Below are positions 2,355-19,327 of a stretch of DNA of 64,000 nt, piece after piece. The notes under the pieces were generated by a model. The model worked only from the letters and a program-made list of their open reading frames with translations. It searched no databases and was not told the DNA's origin. Origin of the DNA: a virus; the IMG/VR virus record IMGVR_UViG_3300005253_000050, positions 1 through 64,000 of that record; one strand, given 5' to 3'. Made by a program: the position numbers and the translations under genes. The stretch's first letter is position 1; each line of letters starts with the position of its first letter.

Positions 2355-3170
2355 ATGGCTAACGTGGTGAAATTGAATACGAAAACAACAATCGTTCACA
2401 TGCTGGTCGAGGGGACATCGCTACGCAGCGCGTCGAGGCTGACGGGCGTTCACCGGGACACGATAGGGCGGTTGTTGCTCCGGGTGGGCGCGCACTGTCA
2501 GCGGTTGCTAGACACGTACTGTCAAGGCGTGCGGGCGAAGATAATCGAGTGCGATGAGTACTGGACGTTCATCAAAAAAAAGCAACAGCGGCTGACCGAG
2601 TCCGAGAGGCTCCTTGGCCTCTTCGGCGACTGGTGGGTCTACACGGCCCTGGACTGCAAATCGAGGCTGGTGATTTGCCACCTGGTGGGCCGTAGGGACG
2701 CGGCGACGGCGCGGGCCTTCATGGCCGATCTGAGAGCTCGCACGGTGGGCCGGCCGGAGCTGTACACCGATGGCCTCGAGGCCTACGTGGGGGCCGTTGA
2801 GGATGCTTTTGGGACCGACCTCAAGTGCCATGCGCAGCTGGTCAAAACCATGAGCGGGCATCGGCTCAAGAGCTTAGAGACGAGGGTCATCAGCGGCGCC
2901 CCGACGAGGGGCATCACGACGAGCTACGTGGAGAGGCACAACCTCACCGCCAGAACCAACTGCAAGCGGTTTGCGCGCAAAACTAACGCCCACTCAAAGA
3001 GACTCAAATTCTTGCAAGCGGCGACGGCCCTGCACTACGCTTGGTATAATTTCGTGCGCATCCACACTACGCTCGAAATCACCCCGGCGATGGCCGCAGG
3101 CATCACCACCGAGGTCTGGGACCTGGAGGAACTGCTGGCAGGCGAGGGGCCAGCGAGGAAAGCGGCATAG
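2355..3170 (+). CDS. IS1-family-like DDE transposase, 271 aa
   Basis: Start at 2355 follows AAGGAGGG. An N-terminal HTH (SLRSASRLTGVHRDTIGRLL) leads into a DDE core: the first acidic residue in IECDEYW, a second in LYTDGLEAY, and the conserved ISTSYVERHNLT-like block (here ITTSYVERHNLT) with IHTTLEITPAMAAG at the end. This order is typical of IS1-like transposases found as single-frame genes in many bacteria and phages. The length is close to full for that family. No obvious terminal inverted repeats or target duplication were found around it, so it may be a domesticated or immobile copy. Confidence 0.85.
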   Translation: MANVVKLNTKTTIVHMLVEGTSLRSASRLTGVHRDTIGRLLLRVGAHCQRLLDTYCQGVRAKIIECDEYWTFIKKKQQRLTESERLLGLFGDWWVYTALDCKSRLVICHLVGRRDAATARAFMADLRARTVGRPELYTDGLEAYVGAVEDAFGTDLKCHAQLVKTMSGHRLKSLETRVISGAPTRGITTSYVERHNLTARTNCKRFARKTNAHSKRLKFLQAATALHYAWYNFVRIHTTLEITPAMAAGITTEVWDLEELLAGEGPARKAA

Positions 3171-3176
3171 GAAACG

Positions 3177-3201
3177 CCCGGCCAGGCATCCCCTGGCCGG
3201 G
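3177..3201. terminator. Strong hairpin after the transposase gene
   Basis: CCCGGCCAGG (3177-3186) and CCTGGCCGGG (3192-3201) form a perfect 10-bp stem with a 5-base loop, six bases after the transposase stop codon. There is no U-tract, so termination would be Rho-assisted or the hairpin may stabilise the 3' end. Confidence 0.45.
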
Positions 3202-3378
3202 CTCATGGTTACTGAGTTGATACCTCGATAGCGACCATAAAGTCACCCATCCGAACGACTATCTGAATCAGCCGGTGGACGCGTCTTACTGCAATTTCAA
3301 ACTGCATTACGTCATCCTCTTGGACGCACGGGTAACGTCGTTTTTTTCAACGTGTCCCCTTGCGTCTAGCTGTAGAAT

Positions 3379-3478
3379 GCGCATGTTAAAGGCTGCCAGC
3401 CTTCTGCATGGCGCGGGTATAGAGCCGACGCACGCGGTCTTCACAACAACACGTAGCGTCGGCTCTGTCTTTTTTGGG
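3379..3478 (+). ncRNA. Candidate small RNA of about 95 nt
   Basis: A -10-like TAGAAT (3373-3378) precedes a short hairpin AAGGCT-GCC-AGCCTT, a single-stranded linker and a strong intrinsic terminator at 3421-3476. No good -35 is present at the usual distance, so the promoter is uncertain. The hairpin-linker-terminator layout is that of many bacterial and phage small RNAs. Confidence 0.35.
3421..3476 (+). terminator. Intrinsic terminator
   Basis: AGAGCCGACGC (3421-3431) pairs perfectly with GCGTCGGCTCT (3456-3466) and is followed by GTCTTTTTTGGG. The U-run on the plus strand sets the orientation. It ends the candidate small RNA or any read-through from the transposase gene. Confidence 0.75.
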
Positions 3479-4042
3479 ATTTTGATCGGCTGCTACCTCC
3501 TTGTTCGTCGGCCCACGTCTTGACGTCGGTTTGCGGGTGGTTACGTTAGCTGTACGTAGATCAGCATGGCGTAACCGACGCCAACCCGCCGCCGGGGCTC
3601 GAAAGGGCTCCGGCGGTGTTCTTCCCCCCTGCAAATCTGGTTTTTGAATGTGGTTGGACGCCTCGCTCGGGGCGCCTGGCCTAGTGTCCGACTCGCTGAT
3701 CGGGCTGGCCTTTAAGGCTCCGCTGGACGGGCCAGCGGGCAGAGGGCTTTCGCCCTGTCCTAATAAATAAGTCCGCCCGTGCCACCTGGCAACCAGCTCT
3801 TCGAAGAAAACACTATTAATTTGGATCATTTACAGCAGTGACCCGCCCGGCGCCCTCTCTCCTTGCACCTCCTCGCCCACCTCGGCTAAGCTATCCAAGC
3901 CGACCAGTGAGCCGTAGACGACGGGCCTGGCCATGCCCCGCGCGTTGCAAGCTGCCAGCCACCACTCAAAGCAAACTAGGCCAGCACCGCATGTTGTGGT
4001 ACGCTGGGGCCCTCGTTTGTTTCACCATCACAAGGAGACACG

Positions 4043-4597
4043 ATGCTTAAACTTCGATTGGCGGCCATCATGGCTGTCGCGCTCTGCATGTCCTGCGGAG
4101 CAACCCCATGGAAGCGGCTCGCCACCGGGTACAACATCGTGAGCCTGACCAAGACACTCGGCGAAAAGTTCGATGGGGCGGTCAAGAACTTCCTCACCGT
4201 CAAGCGCGCCGAGTGCAAGGCAAAGCACGCGATCAAGACCCCGGAGTTCGACAAGTGCGTGCTCCCGGCCGTGAGACTCTCCCGGGCGTGGACCGGAGAG
4301 AGGGCTGGCAAAAAGACAGGCAAGGGCGCGCTGTCCGTTCTCCAGGCCGCACAGAAGACCACCAAGCTCGCGCTCAACGGCGCCTACGACTACGTCAAGA
4401 GCAACGAGCAAGCGTGCAGTGGCGACAGCCCACCGAAGGACTGCCACGGCGATTGGAGTGTGACTCTCAAGCCCGGCGCGTGTGCGCTGTGGACCGTGGT
4501 CGACCTGGGCGTGAAGCTCGGCGCATTCGACGCAACCAACGACCCAACTTACAAACTGGTGGCCGCGTCTGTGGACGTGTTCGCCTGCGGGGGATAG
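4043..4597 (+). CDS. Phage lipoprotein, 184 aa
   Basis: AAGGAGACACG precedes the ATG. The N-terminus MLKLRLAAIMAVALCMSC is a lipoprotein signal ending in a cysteine lipobox (C-M-S-C). The mature part is basic with several cysteines (AECKAKHAIKTPEFDKC, ACSGDSPPKDC) that could form disulfides in the periplasm. The next gene starts two bases after the stop, so the two are co-translated. Function unknown; an envelope-associated role (exclusion or lysis) is inferred from location signals only. Confidence 0.75.
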   Translation: MLKLRLAAIMAVALCMSCGATPWKRLATGYNIVSLTKTLGEKFDGAVKNFLTVKRAECKAKHAIKTPEFDKCVLPAVRLSRAWTGERAGKKTGKGALSVLQAAQKTTKLALNGAYDYVKSNEQACSGDSPPKDCHGDWSVTLKPGACALWTVVDLGVKLGAFDATNDPTYKLVAASVDVFACGG

Positions 4598-4599
4598 CC

Positions 4600-4827
4600 A
4601 TGCCAATCGCAGCAGCAGCAGTCGCAGGACTCGTGATCGAGATTCTCATGAAGGCCTTTCCGCCCGTCTACAAATTCATCAAGGCGGAACTCGACGGCGG
4701 CGCGGACGCCCAGAAGCTCCGGGACACGCCGGTCAACTTCAGCATCTCCTTCGGGGGAGGCGAGGGGGACGCGGTGAAGATCCAGCGCGCCGTCGAAGAC
4801 GAGATGCTCGACCCCGACCAGGACTAA
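4600..4827 (+). CDS. Small hydrophobic-headed protein, 75 aa
   Basis: Starts two bases after the lipoprotein gene. The first 17 residues (MPIAAAAVAGLVIEILM) are hydrophobic, followed by an acidic tail ending MLDPDQD. It could be a short membrane-associated partner of the lipoprotein. No family is recognised. Confidence 0.6.
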   Translation: MPIAAAAVAGLVIEILMKAFPPVYKFIKAELDGGADAQKLRDTPVNFSISFGGGEGDAVKIQRAVEDEMLDPDQD

Positions 4828-4830
4828 AAC

Positions 4831-4867
4831 ACCACCAGCAAAAATCGGCCAGGGGTGGTTTCTTTCG
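4831..4867 (+). terminator. Possible intrinsic terminator
   Basis: ACCACC (4831-4836) pairs with GGTGGT (4854-4859) and is followed by the T-rich run TTCTTTCGTTT. The stem is short and the loop long, so the call is tentative, but it fits between an operon end and a new promoter. Confidence 0.4.
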
Positions 4868-4868
4868 T

Positions 4869-4897
4869 TTGACTCTTGCCGGGAACGTGGTTAGAAT
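4869..4897 (+). promoter_or_regulatory. Promoter of the recombination/replication operon
   Basis: TTGACT (4869-4874) and TAGAAT (4892-4897) are spaced by 17 bases, each 5 of 6 to consensus. The next start (4923) has AGGAGG at 4911-4916. A long co-directional gene run with 1-8 base overlaps follows. Confidence 0.65.
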
Positions 4898-4922
4898 CCA
4901 GGTTCCCAACAGGAGGCAACCA

Positions 4923-5219
4923 ATGGAATCCCAGACATCTGCGTTCGACGACTTCGTTTCTCTGGCCCAAAAGGCGGCCGAGAAACAGCCCACGGTCCTT
5001 CGCGAAAACTACAAGACGGCGGTCGACCGCCTGCTCACCGAAAAACCCAACATCACCGAAGCCGATCTCCTTCGTGGTGTGCTGCGCGCCCTCGGCGTAG
5101 AGAGCGAAGGTGCTGACGCAATGCCAGACGACGAGTTAATCCGAGTCGTTTTGGCTGGGCGCACGGTGCTTCGGCTCCACCGCAAGCACAAGAAAGACCA
5201 GGAGGACGCCAATGTTTAA
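4923..5219 (+). CDS. Small helical protein, 98 aa
   Basis: ATG at 4923 lies 6 bases after AGGAGG; upstream in-frame TTG codons lie in the promoter. The sequence is helical and charged, with a C-terminal basic stretch (LRLHRKHKKDQ). It is the first gene of the operon leading to RecE/RecT and overlaps the next gene by 8 bases. Function unknown; its position suggests an early role. Confidence 0.65.
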   Translation: MESQTSAFDDFVSLAQKAAEKQPTVLRENYKTAVDRLLTEKPNITEADLLRGVLRALGVESEGADAMPDDELIRVVLAGRTVLRLHRKHKKDQEDANV

Positions 5220-6330
5220 AGACCTTCAAAAAGCAATGGCGGACGCCAAGCTCCTCGGCGCGCTGGTGACCTGGGACCTCCACACGAGCGGCACCCTGCT
5301 CACCCGCTCCGCGCTCCGCGACGCGGCGGAGGAGCACGGCGTCCCGCTCGAGATCGAGGACCCGCGCCCGGAGGGCGTCTTCAAAAAGATCATGTCGGGG
5401 GTGCGCACGATCCAGAAGCCGCTGATCAGCCGCATCGTTCGGGAGGATGACGGCGTTATCGTCTGGGCGATTGTGGACACGTCGCTCGAGGGAGACGAGA
5501 AGATCGGCGACGAAGTGGGGAAGATGGTCAACCGCGCCGCCTTCCGCAAGGTCTCCGTGGCCGGGCAGCCGCTCTTTACCTTCCAGTTGGAAGACGATGT
5601 CGCGCTGGCCTGCACCGACAAGTTCGAATACCAGATGAACTACCTCGGGAACGACGACGTGCGAACAGCCCTCGGCGCAACGCTCCGCCTCTGGGGCGCC
5701 ATCCGAATCCACGCGCGGATGCATTTCATCGGTCGGAGCCAGGTGGAAAACGCCCAGCGAATGCAGCTCGCGCTGCAGCAGGTCGGCACCAGATTCTGGT
5801 TGATCCCGATCCCCGACCTGATGGACTCCACGGCGAGCATCGCCCACCATGCCCATGAGAGGTTCGCCCAGGAGCTGAAGGACCTGCGTAAGGAAGTGGA
5901 CCTGTGGGTGGGCGGAGAGCGCGCCCCGAGGACAACGACCCTGAAGGCCCGCCTCAAGTCCTACGAGCAGCTCCGGGGCGAGATCGACATCATCACGCAG
6001 GAGATGCATCTCGAGGCGGATGACCTGCTGGACGAGCTCGCCGGCCTGACCGCCGGTGTGGCGAAGCTGCTCGACCCTCCCAAGCCGAAGACCGACGCCG
6101 TCGAGGAGGAGGCACCCAAGCAGGAGGACGAAGAGGCCGCGACCGAGCCCGCCCCGGCGGCAGACCCGACGCCCCCGAGCCGCCCGGCAGGCCCGCCCAG
6201 CAAGGCCCTGGGCGCCCTCACCGTTCCTGAGCTGCGGGTGATGGCGCGCAACCTGAAGATCGTCCCGTTGCCCGGGACCAAGAAAAGGCTGGTGGCCGCC
6301 ATCCGGGCCAAGCGTGAGGATCCGGCATGA
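5212..6330 (+). CDS. DUF6744-like phage protein with SAP-type C-terminus, 372 aa
   Basis: The N-terminal 215 residues (ALVTWDLHTSGTLLTRSALR..., ending RFWLIPIPDLMD) resemble phage proteins that precede recombination genes, often annotated DUF6744; this match is from memory and not tested. A helical region (220-290) and an acidic Pro/Ala-rich linker (295-330) lead to a C-terminal SAP-like helix-hinge-helix (LTVPELRVMARNLKIVP..GTKKRLVAAI), a DNA-binding fold. A DNA-associated early protein is therefore likely. Confidence 0.6.
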   Translation: MFKDLQKAMADAKLLGALVTWDLHTSGTLLTRSALRDAAEEHGVPLEIEDPRPEGVFKKIMSGVRTIQKPLISRIVREDDGVIVWAIVDTSLEGDEKIGDEVGKMVNRAAFRKVSVAGQPLFTFQLEDDVALACTDKFEYQMNYLGNDDVRTALGATLRLWGAIRIHARMHFIGRSQVENAQRMQLALQQVGTRFWLIPIPDLMDSTASIAHHAHERFAQELKDLRKEVDLWVGGERAPRTTTLKARLKSYEQLRGEIDIITQEMHLEADDLLDELAGLTAGVAKLLDPPKPKTDAVEEEAPKQEDEEAATEPAPAADPTPPSRPAGPPSKALGALTVPELRVMARNLKIVPLPGTKKRLVAAIRAKREDPA

Positions 6331-6554: not shown

Positions 6555-7354
6555 CCCCGAAGCCAGGCCTGCATTTCAACGTCCCATTTTTTGAGTACCT
6601 GACATGGGACGCCCTTTCCAACTCTGGGCTCAAGCACTTCGCCGAGTCCCCCGCGCAGTATCGGCACTGGCTTCTGATTCGAGACGACTTCGTTCCCACC
6701 GACCCCATGATCGTGGGCTCGGCCGTGGACATCCTGATCTTCGATGGGCTCGAGGCCTTCCACTCCAAGTTTTTCAAGCTGCCAGCGCATGTCCAGCGCC
6801 GGGCCGGGACGATGAAGTTCAACATCGAGCTGCTGCGGAACGGCGACAAGATCCCGCTCCCAGCGGAGATGTGGGCCAGGGTCTTTGCCATCGCCGACGC
6901 GGTCCAGTCCGACCCCGAAGTGGCGCCTATACTCGAGCGGGGAAGGTTCCAGGTGTCGTGGGTCTGGCGTGAGCCGAGGACAAAGGTGCTGCTGAAGGGC
7001 CGCCTGGATGTCTGGGATCCGCCCTGGATCGGAGACCTAAAGGTCACCGCCGACATCACACCCCGAGGATGGAAGAGGCAGATCCGCCGGCTCCGCCACG
7101 ACTGGCAGGGCGCCCTCTATTGTGAGGCCATGACCGCGCTCTCCGGCGAACTCCACAACCAGTGGAGTTGGCTCACCGTCCGGGACAAGCCCGTCCACGG
7201 CCTTGAGATATACGACCTGGAGCAGAAGGACCTGATCGACTCGTGGGTCGAGATATACGAGCACCTGCAGACCTACGAAGTCTGCAACGACAACAACCAC
7301 TGGCCCGCCTCCAGCGGGCTCCGACAATCAATTTCAGTGAGGAGCAATTTCTGA
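6551..7354 (+). CDS. RecE-like PD-(D/E)XK exonuclease, 267 aa
   Basis: GTG start overlaps the HTH stop as GTGA. The protein has the layout of phage RecE/DUF3799 nucleases: TWDALSNSGLKHFAESPAQY at the N-terminus, GSAVDILIFDG, then KGRLDVW..WIGDLKVTADI with the D..D-x-K nuclease residues, and a downstream HDWQGALYCEAM (Q-x-x-x-Y) helix. It would degrade 5' strands to make 3' overhangs for the annealase encoded by the next gene, whose ATG overlaps this stop by one base. Confidence 0.8.
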   Translation: MTPKPGLHFNVPFFEYLTWDALSNSGLKHFAESPAQYRHWLLIRDDFVPTDPMIVGSAVDILIFDGLEAFHSKFFKLPAHVQRRAGTMKFNIELLRNGDKIPLPAEMWARVFAIADAVQSDPEVAPILERGRFQVSWVWREPRTKVLLKGRLDVWDPPWIGDLKVTADITPRGWKRQIRRLRHDWQGALYCEAMTALSGELHNQWSWLTVRDKPVHGLEIYDLEQKDLIDSWVEIYEHLQTYEVCNDNNHWPASSGLRQSISVRSNF

Positions 7355-8871
7355 TGTCCACCACCTCGATCGAAGTCATCGAAAAATCACACCGGCCGCC
7401 GTCCAACTTCGGCAGCTTTCTGGAGGTCGTGCAGCCACGTCTCCAGACGGTGCTTCCGGCTCACATCAACGCCGAGACGCTTATCCGCGTCGTCCAGGCA
7501 TCCGGCAACCAGAACGAGCAGCTGCTGAAGTGCACGGAGTCGAGCCTGCTCACGAGCCTGATGCTCTGCTCCCAGCTCGGGCTCCCGCCCAACACGCCGC
7601 AAGGATTCTCCTGGCTCATCCCGTTCTGGAATGGCCGCCAGAAATTGCTCGAGTGCAAGGTCATGTTTGGGAAGAACGGCCTCGCCCAGCTCGTCCGCAA
7701 CAGCGGCGAGGTTCACCGCATGAATTCAGGTGTCGTCTATAAGCACGAGGCGATCTCCGGAGCCTTCACGCACACCAACGAACCGCCGACGATCAACCAC
7801 CGCAGCGACATACTCGCGGACCCAGCACTCTACGCGGACAAGAACCTGGTCGCTGCCTACGCCTTGATCGTGACCAAGGACGGCGCGCAGATTTTGCGAG
7901 TGCTCCGTCGGGACGAAGTCCTGAAGCGCCGCGATTCATCACAGGCTGTGAAGGCGGCCAAGAAAAAAGGATACAGCACGCCCTGGGACGATTGGGAAGC
8001 GCCGATGTGGGTCAAGACCGCGATCCGGGCCCTCTGCGGAATGCCCGAGGTGCCGACGTCCACCGATCTGGTGACCGCCCTGGAGAAGGACATCGACTCT
8101 CCCGACTTTGCCGAGCTCCAGCAGGTCACCACGCCGGGCGACGGGTTCAGGCAACAGGCGGCCCTTGGCGCCACGACTGTGATCGATACCCCCGCCTTGC
8201 CCGCAGGAGACACCACCCCGGCGCCTGCTGCGGCGACGGAGCCCGAGCCCGAGAAGCCCCAGGGCGATGGGGCCACCAAACCGAAGAAGGCCACCAAGGT
8301 GCAGACAGGCCGCCTGTGGGGAAGGTGGGCAAAGATCACCGACTGCGATCCGAAGGCCCCCGCCGACGTGGACAAGGAGTCTTTCCGGGGGTTCGTGGCG
8401 CACCGCATCGGGGAGGACAAGGCCAAGGACTCCTCGAGCTGGACGGTCGACGACTGCAAGGTTATCGGCAAGGGCCTGGACGACTTGCGGGACGGGAAGC
8501 CCGCCGGCCCCCCGGCGGACAAGAAAGAGCCCCCGGCCCCAGCTGAGTCGGCGCCCGAGCCCGCCGCCGAGCCAGCGCCGACGACCGAGGAGGATCCCCC
8601 GAAGCCCGAGATCAGCAAGTCGGACGCTCTGAAGCAGCTGAAAGACCTGAAGAAAGTGCTCAGCATGGAATGGGATGAGGTGCGCGATCTCGCCGGAGGG
8701 GTCGGGGTGACGTTCAAGAACTCCTCGAAGTGGACCGTCCCGGAGTGCCTCGAGGTGATCGAGGCCATGAAGGCGACCATTGCCGACGACCCCACCGAGG
8801 ATCCTCCGCCGGCCGCCAATGGTGAGCAGCCGGAAACCTCCAGTGATCCCGAGGGTAACGAAGTCGACTGA
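7354..8871 (+). CDS. recT: RecT-family annealase with extended C-terminus, 505 aa
   Basis: The first 290 residues are RecT-like: LLKCTESSLLTSLMLCSQLG, PNTPQGFSWLIPFW, VMFGKNGLAQLVRNSGEV and SPMW-type KTAIRAL near residue 225 (here EAPMWVKTAIRAL). GAGGAG stands before the ATG. A Pro/Ala/Glu linker then joins two similar C-terminal segments, each containing S-W-T-V-D/P-x-C (near 375 and 460), unlike the usual RecT of about 270-330 aa. The extension may be a protein-binding tail, inferred from the repeated motif. Confidence 0.85.
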   Translation: MSTTSIEVIEKSHRPPSNFGSFLEVVQPRLQTVLPAHINAETLIRVVQASGNQNEQLLKCTESSLLTSLMLCSQLGLPPNTPQGFSWLIPFWNGRQKLLECKVMFGKNGLAQLVRNSGEVHRMNSGVVYKHEAISGAFTHTNEPPTINHRSDILADPALYADKNLVAAYALIVTKDGAQILRVLRRDEVLKRRDSSQAVKAAKKKGYSTPWDDWEAPMWVKTAIRALCGMPEVPTSTDLVTALEKDIDSPDFAELQQVTTPGDGFRQQAALGATTVIDTPALPAGDTTPAPAAATEPEPEKPQGDGATKPKKATKVQTGRLWGRWAKITDCDPKAPADVDKESFRGFVAHRIGEDKAKDSSSWTVDDCKVIGKGLDDLRDGKPAGPPADKKEPPAPAESAPEPAAEPAPTTEEDPPKPEISKSDALKQLKDLKKVLSMEWDEVRDLAGGVGVTFKNSSKWTVPECLEVIEAMKATIADDPTEDPPPAANGEQPETSSDPEGNEVD

Positions 8872-13494: not shown

Positions 13495-13640
13495 TCTACC
13501 GCGGTGAAGGATGGGAGATCCGGACAGGACCCTGGGAGAACTCCCCCCCGCCCGAGGTCGACGTTTGCATCACTGATCCCCCCTTCGACATCGCCACCCA
13601 CGTCGGCCATGACTCGAGAACCGAAACCGGGCCGCGGTGA
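13491..13640 (+). CDS. DNA methyltransferase, N-terminal part (split gene), 49 aa
   Basis: GTG start overlaps the previous stop. The short frame contains the catalytic motif IV D-P-P-F (ITDPPFDIATHVGHD) and stops at 13638-13640. The rest of the enzyme continues at once in the -1 frame from 13637. Related phage enzymes carry both parts in one chain, so this is either a split or frameshifted gene, a programmed -1 shift, or a sequence error. Confidence 0.6.
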   Translation: MIYRGEGWEIRTGPWENSPPPEVDVCITDPPFDIATHVGHDSRTETGPR

Positions 13641-14236
13641 AGTTCGACCCCATCGATCCGTTCGTCGTCGCCCCCGCGCTTCTCGCTGTGACCCGCAGGT
13701 GGGTCGTGGCCTTCTGCTCCTTCGCCCAGCTCGGGCAGTACCAGGAGGCCGCCGGCGGAATGCGCAAGGCCGGTGGGAACTACGTCCGCGACGGCGCCTG
13801 GAAGAAGACGAACCCAGCGCCGCAGATGTCCGGGGATCGTCCCGCCACCTGGGGCGAGGCCATCGCCATCATGCACCCCCGGGCCCGGGCCATGCAGTGG
13901 AACGGCGGCGGACACGCAGCCTTCTGGGAGTCGCCGACGGCCCGCGGCAAGGAGAGACTCTCGCAGACCCCGAAGCCCGTCGCCCTCATGTGCCAGCTCG
14001 TCGAGGCCTTCACGCTGCCCGGGGAGATCGTCTGGGACGCGTACATGGGGTCCGGCACCACGGGCGTCGCGTGTCTCGAGCTGGGCCGGCGCTTCCTCGG
14101 GCACGAACTGGACCCGGCCCTGGCCGAGCTCGCAGCGCGCCGGCTCCAGGGCCTCGACGTCAAACCGCTCGCGCCGCCGCCCAACCCACAGACGAACATT
14201 TTCGCCAGCGCGGAAGATACCAAGGAGCACCTATGA
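13637..14236 (+). CDS. DNA methyltransferase, C-terminal part (split gene), 199 aa
   Basis: GTG start overlaps the stop of the DPPF fragment (GTGA). It continues the expected enzyme sequence: FDPIDPFVVAPALLAVTRRW, WNGGGHAAFWESP, PKPVALM and the AdoMet-binding motif DAYMGSGTTGVACLELG. Motif IV before motif I marks the beta class of N4/N6 methyltransferases. Without the upstream 49 residues the catalytic DPPF would be missing, so activity depends on association or frameshifting. Confidence 0.7.
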   Translation: MKFDPIDPFVVAPALLAVTRRWVVAFCSFAQLGQYQEAAGGMRKAGGNYVRDGAWKKTNPAPQMSGDRPATWGEAIAIMHPRARAMQWNGGGHAAFWESPTARGKERLSQTPKPVALMCQLVEAFTLPGEIVWDAYMGSGTTGVACLELGRRFLGHELDPALAELAARRLQGLDVKPLAPPPNPQTNIFASAEDTKEHL

Positions 14237-15045: not shown

Positions 15046-15389
15046 TGGCTGACGACGAAAAACCAATGGCCGCAGTCATTGACTTTGCTACCGCTGGGGT
15101 GCGCGCCAAAGACGGACCACCGCTCACCACCACGTACTCGCTGGGATGCAGGCACAAGCACTCGGTGATCGACAAGCGCGCTAGGTCGGTGGAGTGCCGC
15201 GACTGCGAAGCGAGCCTCGATCCAATCGAGGTGCTCTGGTATTTGGCGAACCACTACGCGCGGTACCATTACGCCCTCGACCAGGCCATAAGGGAGGTCA
15301 GAAAAATGGAGGCCCGGTTGAAAGAACTGAAGCGCGAGGAGCGAAACACCAAGGCTCGAATCGCTAGGGCCAAGCGCAAGGAGCACTGA
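15045..15389 (+). CDS. Hypothetical Cys/coiled-coil protein, 114 aa
   Basis: C-x6-H...C-x2-C residues (LGCRHKHSVID..VECRDCEASL) suggest a small metal site, followed by a charged coiled-coil-like helix (REVRKMEARLKELKREERN). The phrase DPIEVLWYLANHYARY resembles a segment seen in other phage proteins of this type. Function unknown. Confidence 0.6.
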   Translation: MADDEKPMAAVIDFATAGVRAKDGPPLTTTYSLGCRHKHSVIDKRARSVECRDCEASLDPIEVLWYLANHYARYHYALDQAIREVRKMEARLKELKREERNTKARIARAKRKEH

Positions 15390-15754
15390 TGCCCGAGGTG
15401 ATCCCCATGGACATGCTGTGCGAGTACATCGGCGCGGTTCCATACGACATCCAGACCGAGGCCCTCCTGCAGCGCGGCATCTCCAACCAACTGATCCGGG
15501 TCGGGATCGAGCACAAGCGGGAGGTCCGCCTGTCGCCCACCGACCGGATCGACTTCATGGTCGGTCTCATCGGGGTGGAAGTGAAAACCAAAGGCAGCCG
15601 CGCCGCACTGATCCGCCAACTCCACCGCTACGCTCAGTCGGGCCTGGTGGACGAGCTGCTAGTGGTGACCACTGTCCCATCCCTCACCCGGGTACCCCGC
15701 GAGCTATGCGGTGTTCCCATCCGCACGCTCGTTCTGTCCGCGTGCCTGCTGTGA
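15389..15754 (+). CDS. PD-(D/E)XK nuclease-like protein, 121 aa
   Basis: The order E..R followed by TDRIDFMVGLIGVEVKTKGS gives the D...E-x-K catalytic core of PD-(D/E)XK nucleases, and RAALIRQLHRYAQSGLVDEL the following helix of VRR/Hjr-type folds. It directly precedes and overlaps the SNF2 helicase gene, so the two may act together on branched DNA; that pairing is inferred from context. Confidence 0.7.
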   Translation: MPEVIPMDMLCEYIGAVPYDIQTEALLQRGISNQLIRVGIEHKREVRLSPTDRIDFMVGLIGVEVKTKGSRAALIRQLHRYAQSGLVDELLVVTTVPSLTRVPRELCGVPIRTLVLSACLL

Positions 15755-18618
15755 AAGCAAGCTACGGACAGATCGAGCTCGCCGGGAAGTTCTGGGTCAT
15801 CCAATGCGAGGCCCACGTCCGGATCCGTTTGAAGCGAGTCTTCGGCGGCGTTCGGAAAAGCGCCTACGACGAAGTCAAGCTGGCCGACTCTCCCGAGACC
15901 TGCCGTGAGCTGCTCTGGTTCTGCGACCGGTACCCCATGGAGATCACCCCGCGCGACTACATGCAGGAGCAGTCGGATCGCCACGAGCGCGAGGAGCAGA
16001 TGGTGTTCGAGATGGTGAGCGGGCACGTGCCGCCGGCGGAGTTCGACCTGGCGCTGCCACTGCGCGACTACCAGCGGATCGCCACCGACCTTGCGCTGAA
16101 GACCGGCGGCCTGCTGGTGGCGGACGACGTCGGTCTCGGAAAGACGGCTTGTGCAATCGGCGTCTTCACGGACCTGCGCACCCTGCCGGCGCTGGTGGTG
16201 ACGCTCACGCACCTCCCGATCCAGTGGCAGCGCGAGCTGAATCGTTTCGCCCCGAAGCTCTCCACCCACATCGTCAAGAAGGGAACGCCGTACGACATCA
16301 AAGGCGGCTGGCCCGACGTCCTGATCATGAACTACCACAAGCTCGCGGGCTGGGCCGACGTGCTAGCAAACCGAGTCCGCTCCGTGGTGTTCGATGAGAT
16401 CCAGGAGCTACGCACCGGTGCCGAGAAAAGCGCCAAGGGTGCGGCGGCCAATCACATCGCTAAGAGCGTCGGGTTCAGGATGGGGCTGAGCGCGACGCCG
16501 ATCTACAACCACGGCTTCGAGATGTTCAACGTGATGGAGTGCGTGCGCCCCGGCGCCCTCGGCCCCGAGCACGAGTTCCGTAATGAGTGGGTGGACAACT
16601 ACGGCCGGGTCAAGGATCCGCAGGCGTTCGGGACCTATCTCCGCGACGCGGGGATGATGCTGCGCCGCACCCGCGAGGACGTCCAGCGGGAGCTGCGGCC
16701 GCTGACCAAGGTGCCGCATTGGATCAGTGCCGACTTCGACGCGATGGACAAGGTCGCGCGCTCCGCGGATGAGCTGGCGCTGGCCATCGTGAACCCGGCG
16801 GATCTGAATCAGAAGGATCAGTTCGGCGCCGAGCGAGAGTTCAACTCGCTGCTGCGCCAGGCGACCGGCGTGGCGAAGGCTCCCTACGTCGCCGAGTTCG
16901 TCCGCATGCTTCTTGACCGCGGCGAGCAGGTGGTTCTGTACGGGTGGCACCGAGTGGTCTACAGCCTATGGCTCGACCGGCTGAAGGACTACCGGCCCGC
17001 GATGTACACCGGCTCGGAGTCTCCGAAGCAAAAGGACGAGGCGATCCAGCGGTTCATGGATCGGGATGCTCGAGTACTCCTGATCTCCCTCCGCTCCGGC
17101 GCGGGGCTCGACGGCCTCCAGCACCACACCCGCACTGTCGTCTTCGGCGAGCTGGACTGGAGCCCCGGCGTACACGAACAGTGTCTGTCCGATGACACCG
17201 AGGTACTTACTCGCAGTGGGTTCTGTGGAAGAGATGACGTTGAAGTCGGAGACGAGATTGCGGCCTTCGACTTGGCCGACAGCAGTATTCGATGGACCCC
17301 GGCGCAGAGCAAGACGGACCGCCCCATGTATGCCGGCGAACGGATGTATGCTGCCGTCACAGAAAAGACAGCGCTGCGGGTAACGGGCGAGCACCGACTT
17401 GTTGTCCGGCGAAGCACTCGCACAACAGAGGGGCGCGGGCGATCACCGTGGGAGATTGTTTTGGCGCAGAGCGTAGCAGGTGCTACGCGGCGATTCATTC
17501 CCACATGTGGATTTGAGGATGCACCAGGAGTAGATCTGACCGACTATGAGCTTCGGCTGATTGGTTGGTTCGTCACCGATGGCAGTTTCAATGGTAGGTT
17601 TGTGACTATTTTTCAGGCGGCCCATCAGCCATGGAACGAAGACCTTGTTGAGGTGCTGGACGGCTGCGACCTCACATGGCACCGCTACACACGACAGAAT
17701 CCAAGCGGTCCAATGAACCTCTACTGCATACCCAAAGGGACGCTTCATCGGTGGTCTAGAAATGAGGTCGACCGACTGCGAGAGATGCTGCGAAACGGGC
17801 TTGGATACAAGGATGTCTCGACTGCGCTGAATCGATCCGCGGCGGCGGTGGGAAAAAAAGCAAGGAAGCTGGAGTCCCATGGAGAGGGGATGCCAGTCGC
17901 CAAGCGAACCGTTCGCGGCTGGTTGCATCTACACGACTACTTGGACAAGGACCTGAGCCCATTATTGGAGCAGATAACTCGCAAGCAACTCATACAACTG
18001 CTGCGTGGAATATACATGGGGGACGGAGCCAAGAGCCCGAAGCTCAAGAACGTCACCCGGATCACTAGCGTCAACAAGCTGTTCATGGACAGACTGCAGT
18101 CGCTCTGTGTCCGGCGTGGATTCTCTGCGACGATATCCCGCCGGAAAGCAAAAACGAGCGCCGGAAATACGGCCTACGATATTTTCATTTCGGAGGCGGC
18201 GGACGCCAGCCTTCCTGGTGCAAACAAACGCAATGGATTTGCTGAATCACCCCGGACTGATCGCGAACGCGTCTGGTGTGTGACGAACGAAATGGGCACT
18301 CTGATCACTCGCCGCAACGGCAAAGTTGCAATCGTAGGAAATTGCATCGGGCGGGTCCACCGCGACGGCCAGCTGGACCCTGTTACTGCCTACTACCTGC
18401 TCGCCGAGGTGGGGGTCGACCCGTTCATGAGCAAGGTCCTCGGAATCAAGCGGACGCAGATCGAGGGCATCAAAGATCCGACGGGCGCAGCCCAGCCCAA
18501 CTACGACGTCGCTGGCGACAGCATCAAGCAGCTGGCCCGGGATTATCTGGAGCAACGCAAGAAGACGAAAGGAACGGAGCATGCAGGCAACTTCGATCGA
18601 GTGGTGTATTTCGACTGA
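15751..18618 (+). CDS. SNF2-family helicase precursor with intein, 955 aa
   Basis: GTG start overlaps the nuclease stop as GTGA; a far upstream in-frame extension is rejected because it runs through that gene in another frame. Helicase motifs: I DDVGLGKTA (residues 125-133), II DEIQE (near 215), III MGLSATPIYN, V LLISLRSGAGLDG, and VI IGRVHRDGQ. Motif VI is interrupted by a 387-aa intein inserted before the cysteine of QCIGR (17182-18342). After splicing the helicase would be 568 aa, a DNA translocase probably used in replication or recombination. Confidence 0.9.
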   Translation: MKASYGQIELAGKFWVIQCEAHVRIRLKRVFGGVRKSAYDEVKLADSPETCRELLWFCDRYPMEITPRDYMQEQSDRHEREEQMVFEMVSGHVPPAEFDLALPLRDYQRIATDLALKTGGLLVADDVGLGKTACAIGVFTDLRTLPALVVTLTHLPIQWQRELNRFAPKLSTHIVKKGTPYDIKGGWPDVLIMNYHKLAGWADVLANRVRSVVFDEIQELRTGAEKSAKGAAANHIAKSVGFRMGLSATPIYNHGFEMFNVMECVRPGALGPEHEFRNEWVDNYGRVKDPQAFGTYLRDAGMMLRRTREDVQRELRPLTKVPHWISADFDAMDKVARSADELALAIVNPADLNQKDQFGAEREFNSLLRQATGVAKAPYVAEFVRMLLDRGEQVVLYGWHRVVYSLWLDRLKDYRPAMYTGSESPKQKDEAIQRFMDRDARVLLISLRSGAGLDGLQHHTRTVVFGELDWSPGVHEQCLSDDTEVLTRSGFCGRDDVEVGDEIAAFDLADSSIRWTPAQSKTDRPMYAGERMYAAVTEKTALRVTGEHRLVVRRSTRTTEGRGRSPWEIVLAQSVAGATRRFIPTCGFEDAPGVDLTDYELRLIGWFVTDGSFNGRFVTIFQAAHQPWNEDLVEVLDGCDLTWHRYTRQNPSGPMNLYCIPKGTLHRWSRNEVDRLREMLRNGLGYKDVSTALNRSAAAVGKKARKLESHGEGMPVAKRTVRGWLHLHDYLDKDLSPLLEQITRKQLIQLLRGIYMGDGAKSPKLKNVTRITSVNKLFMDRLQSLCVRRGFSATISRRKAKTSAGNTAYDIFISEAADASLPGANKRNGFAESPRTDRERVWCVTNEMGTLITRRNGKVAIVGNCIGRVHRDGQLDPVTAYYLLAEVGVDPFMSKVLGIKRTQIEGIKDPTGAAQPNYDVAGDSIKQLARDYLEQRKKTKGTEHAGNFDRVVYFD
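17182..18342 (+). other. Intein with LAGLIDADG homing endonuclease, 387 aa
   Basis: The element begins with Cys in CLSDDTEVLTRSG (block A), has TGEH (block B, residues 68-71) and ends VAIVGN before an extein Cys, the three splice signals. Two endonuclease motifs occur at 126-134 (LIGWFVTDG) and 273-282 (LLRGIYMGDG). Between them lies an HTH-like segment (GYKDVSTALNRSAAAVGKKA) that may bind DNA. The usual penultimate His is Gly here, which occurs in some inteins. Both splicing and homing look intact by sequence. Confidence 0.9.
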
Positions 18619-19327
18619 TGGATCCAAGGGGTTTACCTGGTCGCCGTCGACCGGGTGCCTCGGCCCGGGCGGGACGCTCGAACAGCCGCGGCGTTGTCCG
18701 GGCTGCTACGCTGCGGTCATCGCCGCGCGCTGGGGAAAGACCGACGTGACCAAAGGCTTCCTCCCAGAGTTCCACGAGCGCCGCCTCACGGAGCCAGCCA
18801 AGCGGAAGAAGCCGACCACCATCTTCGTCTGCTCGATGGCGGATCTCTGGGGCGACTGGGTTCCGGACGAGTGGATTCGGAAGGTGCTGAAGGTCGCCCT
18901 CGAGTGCTCGCGCCACACCTTCATCTTCCTCACGAAGAACCCGAAGCGGTATCGGGAGTTCGATCCGTACCCTCACAACGTCTGGCTCGGGGCGACGACG
19001 CGGACCAGGCCCGAGTACGTCCGCGCCGCCCACGCGCTGGACCAGGTGGCCGCGGCGGTCAGGTTCGTTTCGGTGGAGCCTATGCTCGGCCCAGTGCATC
19101 TTGACTCCAGTGGCTTCTGGAAGCCCGACTGGATCATCATCGGCGACCTCAACCGCAGCGGCAGGCCCACCGGCACAACCCAGGCCGAGTGGGTGACCGC
19201 ATTGACAGCGGACGCTAGGCGTCATAAAATTCCGGTGTTTCATAAAGACTCACTGGCGGCCCGCGGCTTCACGTCGCGAGAACTACCTGGAGGACATTAT
19301 GCCCGAGAGCAACAGCAACTCATCTAG
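18581..19327 (+). CDS. Gp37/Gp68 (DUF5131) family protein, 248 aa
   Basis: Blocks IEWCISTDGSKGFTWSPSTG, CPGCYA, IFVCSMADLWGDWVP, FIFLTKNPKRY, VWLGATT and RFVSVEPMLGP, then WIIIGD, match the phage Gp37/Gp68 family in order. The cysteine cluster C..C..C near the N-terminus is reminiscent of radical-SAM-like proteins. Its role is not established. It overlaps the helicase gene by 38 bases. Confidence 0.85.
   Translation: MQATSIEWCISTDGSKGFTWSPSTGCLGPGGTLEQPRRCPGCYAAVIAARWGKTDVTKGFLPEFHERRLTEPAKRKKPTTIFVCSMADLWGDWVPDEWIRKVLKVALECSRHTFIFLTKNPKRYREFDPYPHNVWLGATTRTRPEYVRAAHALDQVAAAVRFVSVEPMLGPVHLDSSGFWKPDWIIIGDLNRSGRPTGTTQAEWVTALTADARRHKIPVFHKDSLAARGFTSRELPGGHYAREQQQLI

Follow-up and report, generated by a model that had tools for sequence, protein, structure and literature searches.

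One of the questions raised by this viral locus is why a phage helicase of the SNF2 type carries 387 extra residues within motif VI, and whether they stay in the mature protein. The window, which is the whole stretch of DNA that was analysed, is 64 kb long and belongs to a viral record of 93.6 kb, and the helicase gene lies at 15751-18618 on the plus strand. Its start is best placed at the GTG at 15751, which overlaps the stop of the upstream gene, and the precursor of 955 residues is read without a stop or a change of frame throughout. The N-extein (15751..17181, plus strand, 477 amino acids) holds helicase motifs I-V and was recognised in profile searches by the SNF2-related domain PF00176 (E 7e-15) and the phrog_62 DNA helicase (E 1e-77), while the C-extein (18343..18618, plus strand) begins with CIGRVHRDGQ and carries the remainder of motif VI to the stop. 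SF2 helicases require motif VI to hydrolyse ATP. A sequence-only reading had proposed an intein with a homing endonuclease at 17182-18342, directly before the cysteine of this motif, and by codon mapping the placement is correct to the base: the insertion is in frame between Q and CIGR, the Cys1 codon TGT occupies 17182-17184, the last codon, AAT for Asn387, has 18342 as its final base, and TGC, the codon of the +1 Cys, starts at 18343. Around the helicase we find a small upstream gene (15389-15754, phrog_5928), whose counterparts at this position in relatives are annotated as Cas4-family exonuclease or endonuclease, a DUF5131 protein (18581-19327; PF07505, E 2e-42) that overlaps the helicase end, and a DNA methyltransferase-like gene (13637-14236; phrog_67, E 3e-27).

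If the segment is mobile, helicases without it should exist among the relatives, and this was a check that the sequence-only reading had named. A single-sequence search of viral contigs with the window N-extein gave no relatives because its patterns were too specific; a search with the family alignment gave 467. The helicases of LR745208.1 (54% identical to the window N-extein), Tunturi_5, Pseudomonas phage E220, DrYang, Dfl-JY45, Pyei1 and Ruegeria phage 45A6 are gap-free across the site, and most of the 80 viral loci obtained from the family alignment are likewise uninterrupted there. In total, 74 distinct uninterrupted alleles were found, in which the two exteins are contiguous and of which 52 already code for the +1 Cys. 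The segment is thus not a domain conserved in all such helicases, the finding that would have spoken against an intein, because 74 distinct alleles run through the site. A pair of occupied and empty alleles more than 90% identical, a sign of recent homing, was not found among these relatives.

Anatomy of the insert

The intein (17182..18342, plus strand, as are all its parts) begins with the N-terminal Hint splicing region (17182..17505), which includes block A, CLSDDTEVLT, with Cys1 and block B, TGEH, with T68 and H71. This region is all-beta in the AlphaFold2 model (pLDDT 92-98) and is matched by Hint and Hint_2 profiles. It is followed by a first LAGLIDADG half-domain (17542..17739), recognised by alignment and by the predicted helix 121-133, with the sequence ELRLIGWFVTDGS at residues 123-135 and the acid D133. 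The second half-domain (17905..18216), which matches PF14528 above the cut-off, has a predicted helix at 267-281 and the sequence LLRGIYMGDGA at residues 273-283 with the acid D281. Both LAGLIDADG motifs that the first reading had pointed out are present with their acids, as are the splice-site residues that it had mentioned, here Cys1, the C-terminal VGN and the +1 Cys. The C-terminal Hint splicing region (18241..18342) contains blocks F and G, VWCVTNEMGTLITRRNGKVAIVGN, and is devoid of histidine.

The AlphaFold2 model of the intein, built from an alignment of 21 members, has a pLDDT of 92.3 and a pTM of 0.84 and combines a Hint fold with a LAGLIDADG endonuclease. In Foldseek its best solved match is the TliVMA intein (E 2e-13), followed by PI-SceI, PhoVMA and PI-PfuI, and the endonuclease part also matches I-DmoI. 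In Pfam, LAGLIDADG_3 is found above the cut-off and the Hint match, from residue 1, below it; this is the sole LAGLIDADG_3 match in the 93.6-kb record. The Hint fold expected of a class 1 intein is thus seen in both the model and the structural search, together with Cys1, the block B TxxH, Asn387 with Cys+1 and contiguous insert-free homologues, and the two helices with D133 and D281 are those of a LAGLIDADG homing endonuclease. Class 3 was also considered, as block F has a cysteine, and was rejected: Cys1 is present, no Trp follows the block B His and Val stands at G5, so that the block F Cys is all that the window intein has of the Trp-Cys-Thr triad. Chance can be excluded because an open insertion of 387 residues with exact splice-site residues lies where 74 distinct relatives read on without a break. 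We conclude that the segment is almost certainly an intein of class 1, carrying a LAGLIDADG homing endonuclease that looks intact and an added helix-turn-helix (HTH) module.

The extra HTH segment, also noticed from the sequence, is borne out by three predicted helices (193-204, 209-216 and 220-232) at about residues 187-241 (17740..17904), which the model places between the LAGLIDADG helices 121-133 and 267-281. Matches to HTH-family profiles are weak (best E about 0.002), so the call rests mainly on the model. Six inteins carry the HTH and it is cleanly absent from L098, L099, L116, L118, L119, L120 and the related methylase inteins; as read from these sequences, it is a removable module. 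A single origin of the HTH-bearing inteins is not rejected (clade test, p-AU 0.22). The module likely contacts DNA and tunes target recognition. In TliVMA, an HTH-like domain is reported to make cleavage less specific, by which new sites may become accessible (PMC8966425).

The intein has a G+C content of 56.0% (GC3 60.5) against 65.1% (GC3 87.4) in the N-extein. Such a difference could be taken for recent acquisition, an interpretation that we did not adopt, since the intein is lower in G+C than the N-extein in all 12 helicase inteins examined, in L092 only slightly. Low G+C may therefore be a habit of the lineage.

Occupied sites and the question of homing

Another question is whether the intein moves or is simply inherited with the helicase. 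A 391-amino acid intein at the identical position, ending in VGN|CIGR, is found in L020 and is 52% identical to that of the window. Inteins at the Q|C position were also found in L091, L092, L113 (a contig of a Phycisphaerae MAG), L114 and L118. The same intein lineage occurs two residues upstream, as WSPAIH|C...TGN|SQCETR, in L098, L099/L112 and L115-L117 (at 4001 in L098, L099 and L116), and L124 and L127 are empty alleles that match this upstream site, WSPAIHSQCETR (WSPAIH/SQCETR). L119, another SF2 helicase, has its intein (at 4001) at Y|CQMIGR, which by alignment corresponds to this upstream site with respect to motif VI, and in L120 an intein of the lineage lies ~20 residues past the motif. 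The L099 record (G007) shows, ~19 kb away, a second and partial intein-profile match (72457-72837, E 5e-7). The Pinkcreek match was discarded, being a protein among tail genes and no helicase.

One possible option is that splicing is kept, the endonuclease is inactive and degenerating, and the intein descends vertically with its helicase. The window and L020, the closest by extein, have exteins 62% and inteins 52% identical, as expected for old co-descent; the intein and extein trees both pair the window with L020 and L092 with L113, and shared descent of inteins and helicases is not formally rejected (p-AU 0.073). Against this, the inteins are distributed sporadically, both catalytic acids are kept in 12 of 12 helicase inteins, with D281 in all 21 members of the lineage, and pN in the endonuclease is 0.09-0.17 between related pairs against a pS of 0.66-0.79, and therefore the endonuclease is under purifying selection. 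Moreover, the L098 group and the window share 51% identity in their inteins but only ~30% in their helicases, which suggests, on sequence comparison, lateral transfer between divergent helicases with a shifted insertion point; for L118 the values are 41% for the inteins and 44% for the exteins. Based on these data we regard a degenerating endonuclease as unlikely, although it keeps some small chance.

The mechanism that we prefer is that of a working homing intein. The endonuclease would cleave helicase genes that lack the insert at the junction encoding VHEQCIGR, in DNA CACGAACAG/TGCATCGGG, and repair from the occupied allele would copy the intein into the cut gene. A broader and tentative scenario, which we put forward as a possibility only, joins these observations: the lineage may jump between divergent helicases and re-insert within a few codons of motif VI (at Q|C, or two codons upstream at H|SQC or Y|CQM), with the insertion point sliding to an available Cys or Ser, gain or loss of the HTH altering how the target is read, and splicing relying on a C-terminal active site that is devoid of histidine and peculiar to the lineage.

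Proposed splicing without the usual histidines

In the splicing route that we propose, the Hint fold would excise the intein after translation. Cys1, helped by T68 and H71, would take the N-extein as a thioester, Cys+1 would then accept it, and cyclisation of Asn387 would release the intein and leave the helicase rejoined as VHEQ-CIGRVHR. The last step would have to take place without a penultimate His or a conserved block F His, and Cys366 and Arg377 may stand in for them. In the lineage alignment, whose 21 members come from helicases and DNA methylases, Cys1, T68 and H71 are kept in all members, and so are the block F VWC and the terminal GN. None of the members shares a conserved histidine in the last 25 residues (blocks F-G), and 18 of the 21 lack any His there; in the VWC...RR...GN block, Cys366 and Arg377 are invariant and are candidate substitutes.

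The glycine in the penultimate place had been singled out from the sequence as notable. It is present, but it is no local oddity: it occurs in 21 of 21 members where His is usual, and is thus a property of the lineage. As this His is usual and not obligatory, its absence is no bar to class 1 membership; mycobacteriophage class 1 inteins are reported to have Gly, Lys or Ser in this place, and the Bethlehem RDF intein, in which it is Gly, was shown to splice to completion, whereas mutation to His makes it slow (Kelley et al., PMC5050341). With a lineage-wide distribution and a published, splicing-competent precedent, the glycine does not mark the intein as weak or dying. Yet, efficient splicing in a test host is not to be assumed, because the C-terminal block lacks both of the usual histidines.

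This leads to the idea that splicing is slow or conditional and that the intein is a post-translational switch on the helicase. The precursor should indeed be inactive because an essential motif is interrupted, and conditional splicing has been reported for mycobacterial DnaB inteins (PMC6195587, PMC7360933). However, in the sole phage intein with this glycine that has been tested, splicing goes to completion and is quicker than in its His variant, and the same trait is found in methylase inteins, in a different host protein, so we hold a switch to be improbable. That the insert is a helicase domain, for example a regulatory or nuclease one, which is retained without splicing is very improbable: it is in frame, under purifying selection and without the canonical C-terminal histidines, but it splits motif VI, is absent from 74 relatives, and all the occupied helicases that were examined retain Cys1, TxxH, Asn and a +1 Cys or Ser. 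The class 1 homing intein accounts for the insert-free alleles, the same-site intein of L020, the predicted fold, the kept acids and the purifying selection, and the first reading of the segment, with splicing and cutting still as expected activities, stands.

Comparison with known inteins

Relative to the open-licence literature, motif VI is a new intein site in this helicase family, and so are the insertion of this lineage two codons further upstream in helicases that are divergent and the Walker A and motif III inteins of relatives. The latter are unrelated to the window lineage. In L092, the same helicase has a second intein (6771-7832, minus strand), placed in Walker A as GVGK|Q...LTHN|T, where Gln1 gives no N-terminal nucleophile. 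It matches mycobacterial DnaB inteins of known structure (6rix, 6bs8), of which 6rix, by our reading, belongs to a class 3 study (PMC7664689); the L092 sequence can be read as containing a Trp-Cys-Thr triad, which makes this intein a class 3 candidate. L091 has a second intein (6697-8043) in motif III, GL|S...VHN|SATPFYNYG, with Ser1 and LAGLIDADG, and L126, intein-free at motif VI, has a Walker A intein within 3001-5376, GMG|C...VHN|CGKT, whose endonuclease looks HNH-type. Several inteins in one helicase are also known from haloarchaeal MCM (PMC10643990). Inteins have thus entered the family independently at Walker A, motif III and motif VI, and motif VI of these phage SNF2-type helicases joins the catalytic sites colonised by inteins. 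The lineage offers a natural series, with and without the HTH and with insertion points that differ by two codons, in which accessory domains can be related to homing specificity, and its C-terminal block, being free of histidine, lends itself to the study of how Asn cyclisation works without the usual histidines.

Among the solved homing-endonuclease inteins (TliVMA, PI-SceI, PhoVMA, PI-PfuI and PI-TkoII; PMC8966425), TliVMA and PI-TkoII also carry HTH-like accessory domains. The accessory domain of TliVMA and PhoVMA lies between the endonuclease and the Hint C-terminal part (PMC8966425), whereas the HTH of the window lies between the LAGLIDADG halves, and that of PI-SceI is, unlike here, an insertion within Hint. 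The Salinibacter phage M8CC-19 helicase intein (AUO78955.1) is 33% identical over the C-terminal 40% and has a comparable end, VWCVT...VTGN, but it sits in another SF2 helicase, near motif V, with a +1 Thr and a shorter region between the LAGLIDADG halves. The Bethlehem gp51 RDF intein (PMC5050341), compared by its published description, is likewise of class 1, comes from a phage and has Gly in the penultimate place, and was shown to splice; its host protein and site differ. The mycobacteriophage DNA methylase inteins (DNMT-1/2, PMC5050341; PMC9957025) are homologous over the full length at about 23-28% identity and share class 1, Cys1, the VWC block F, the penultimate Gly and the LAGLIDADG endonuclease, but differ in their DNA methylase host, the site G|SGFPK, the lack of an HTH and a first acid that is mostly Glu. 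The element is therefore of a known kind, a phage-borne intein with a homing endonuclease, and its unusual splice chemistry is common to the whole lineage.
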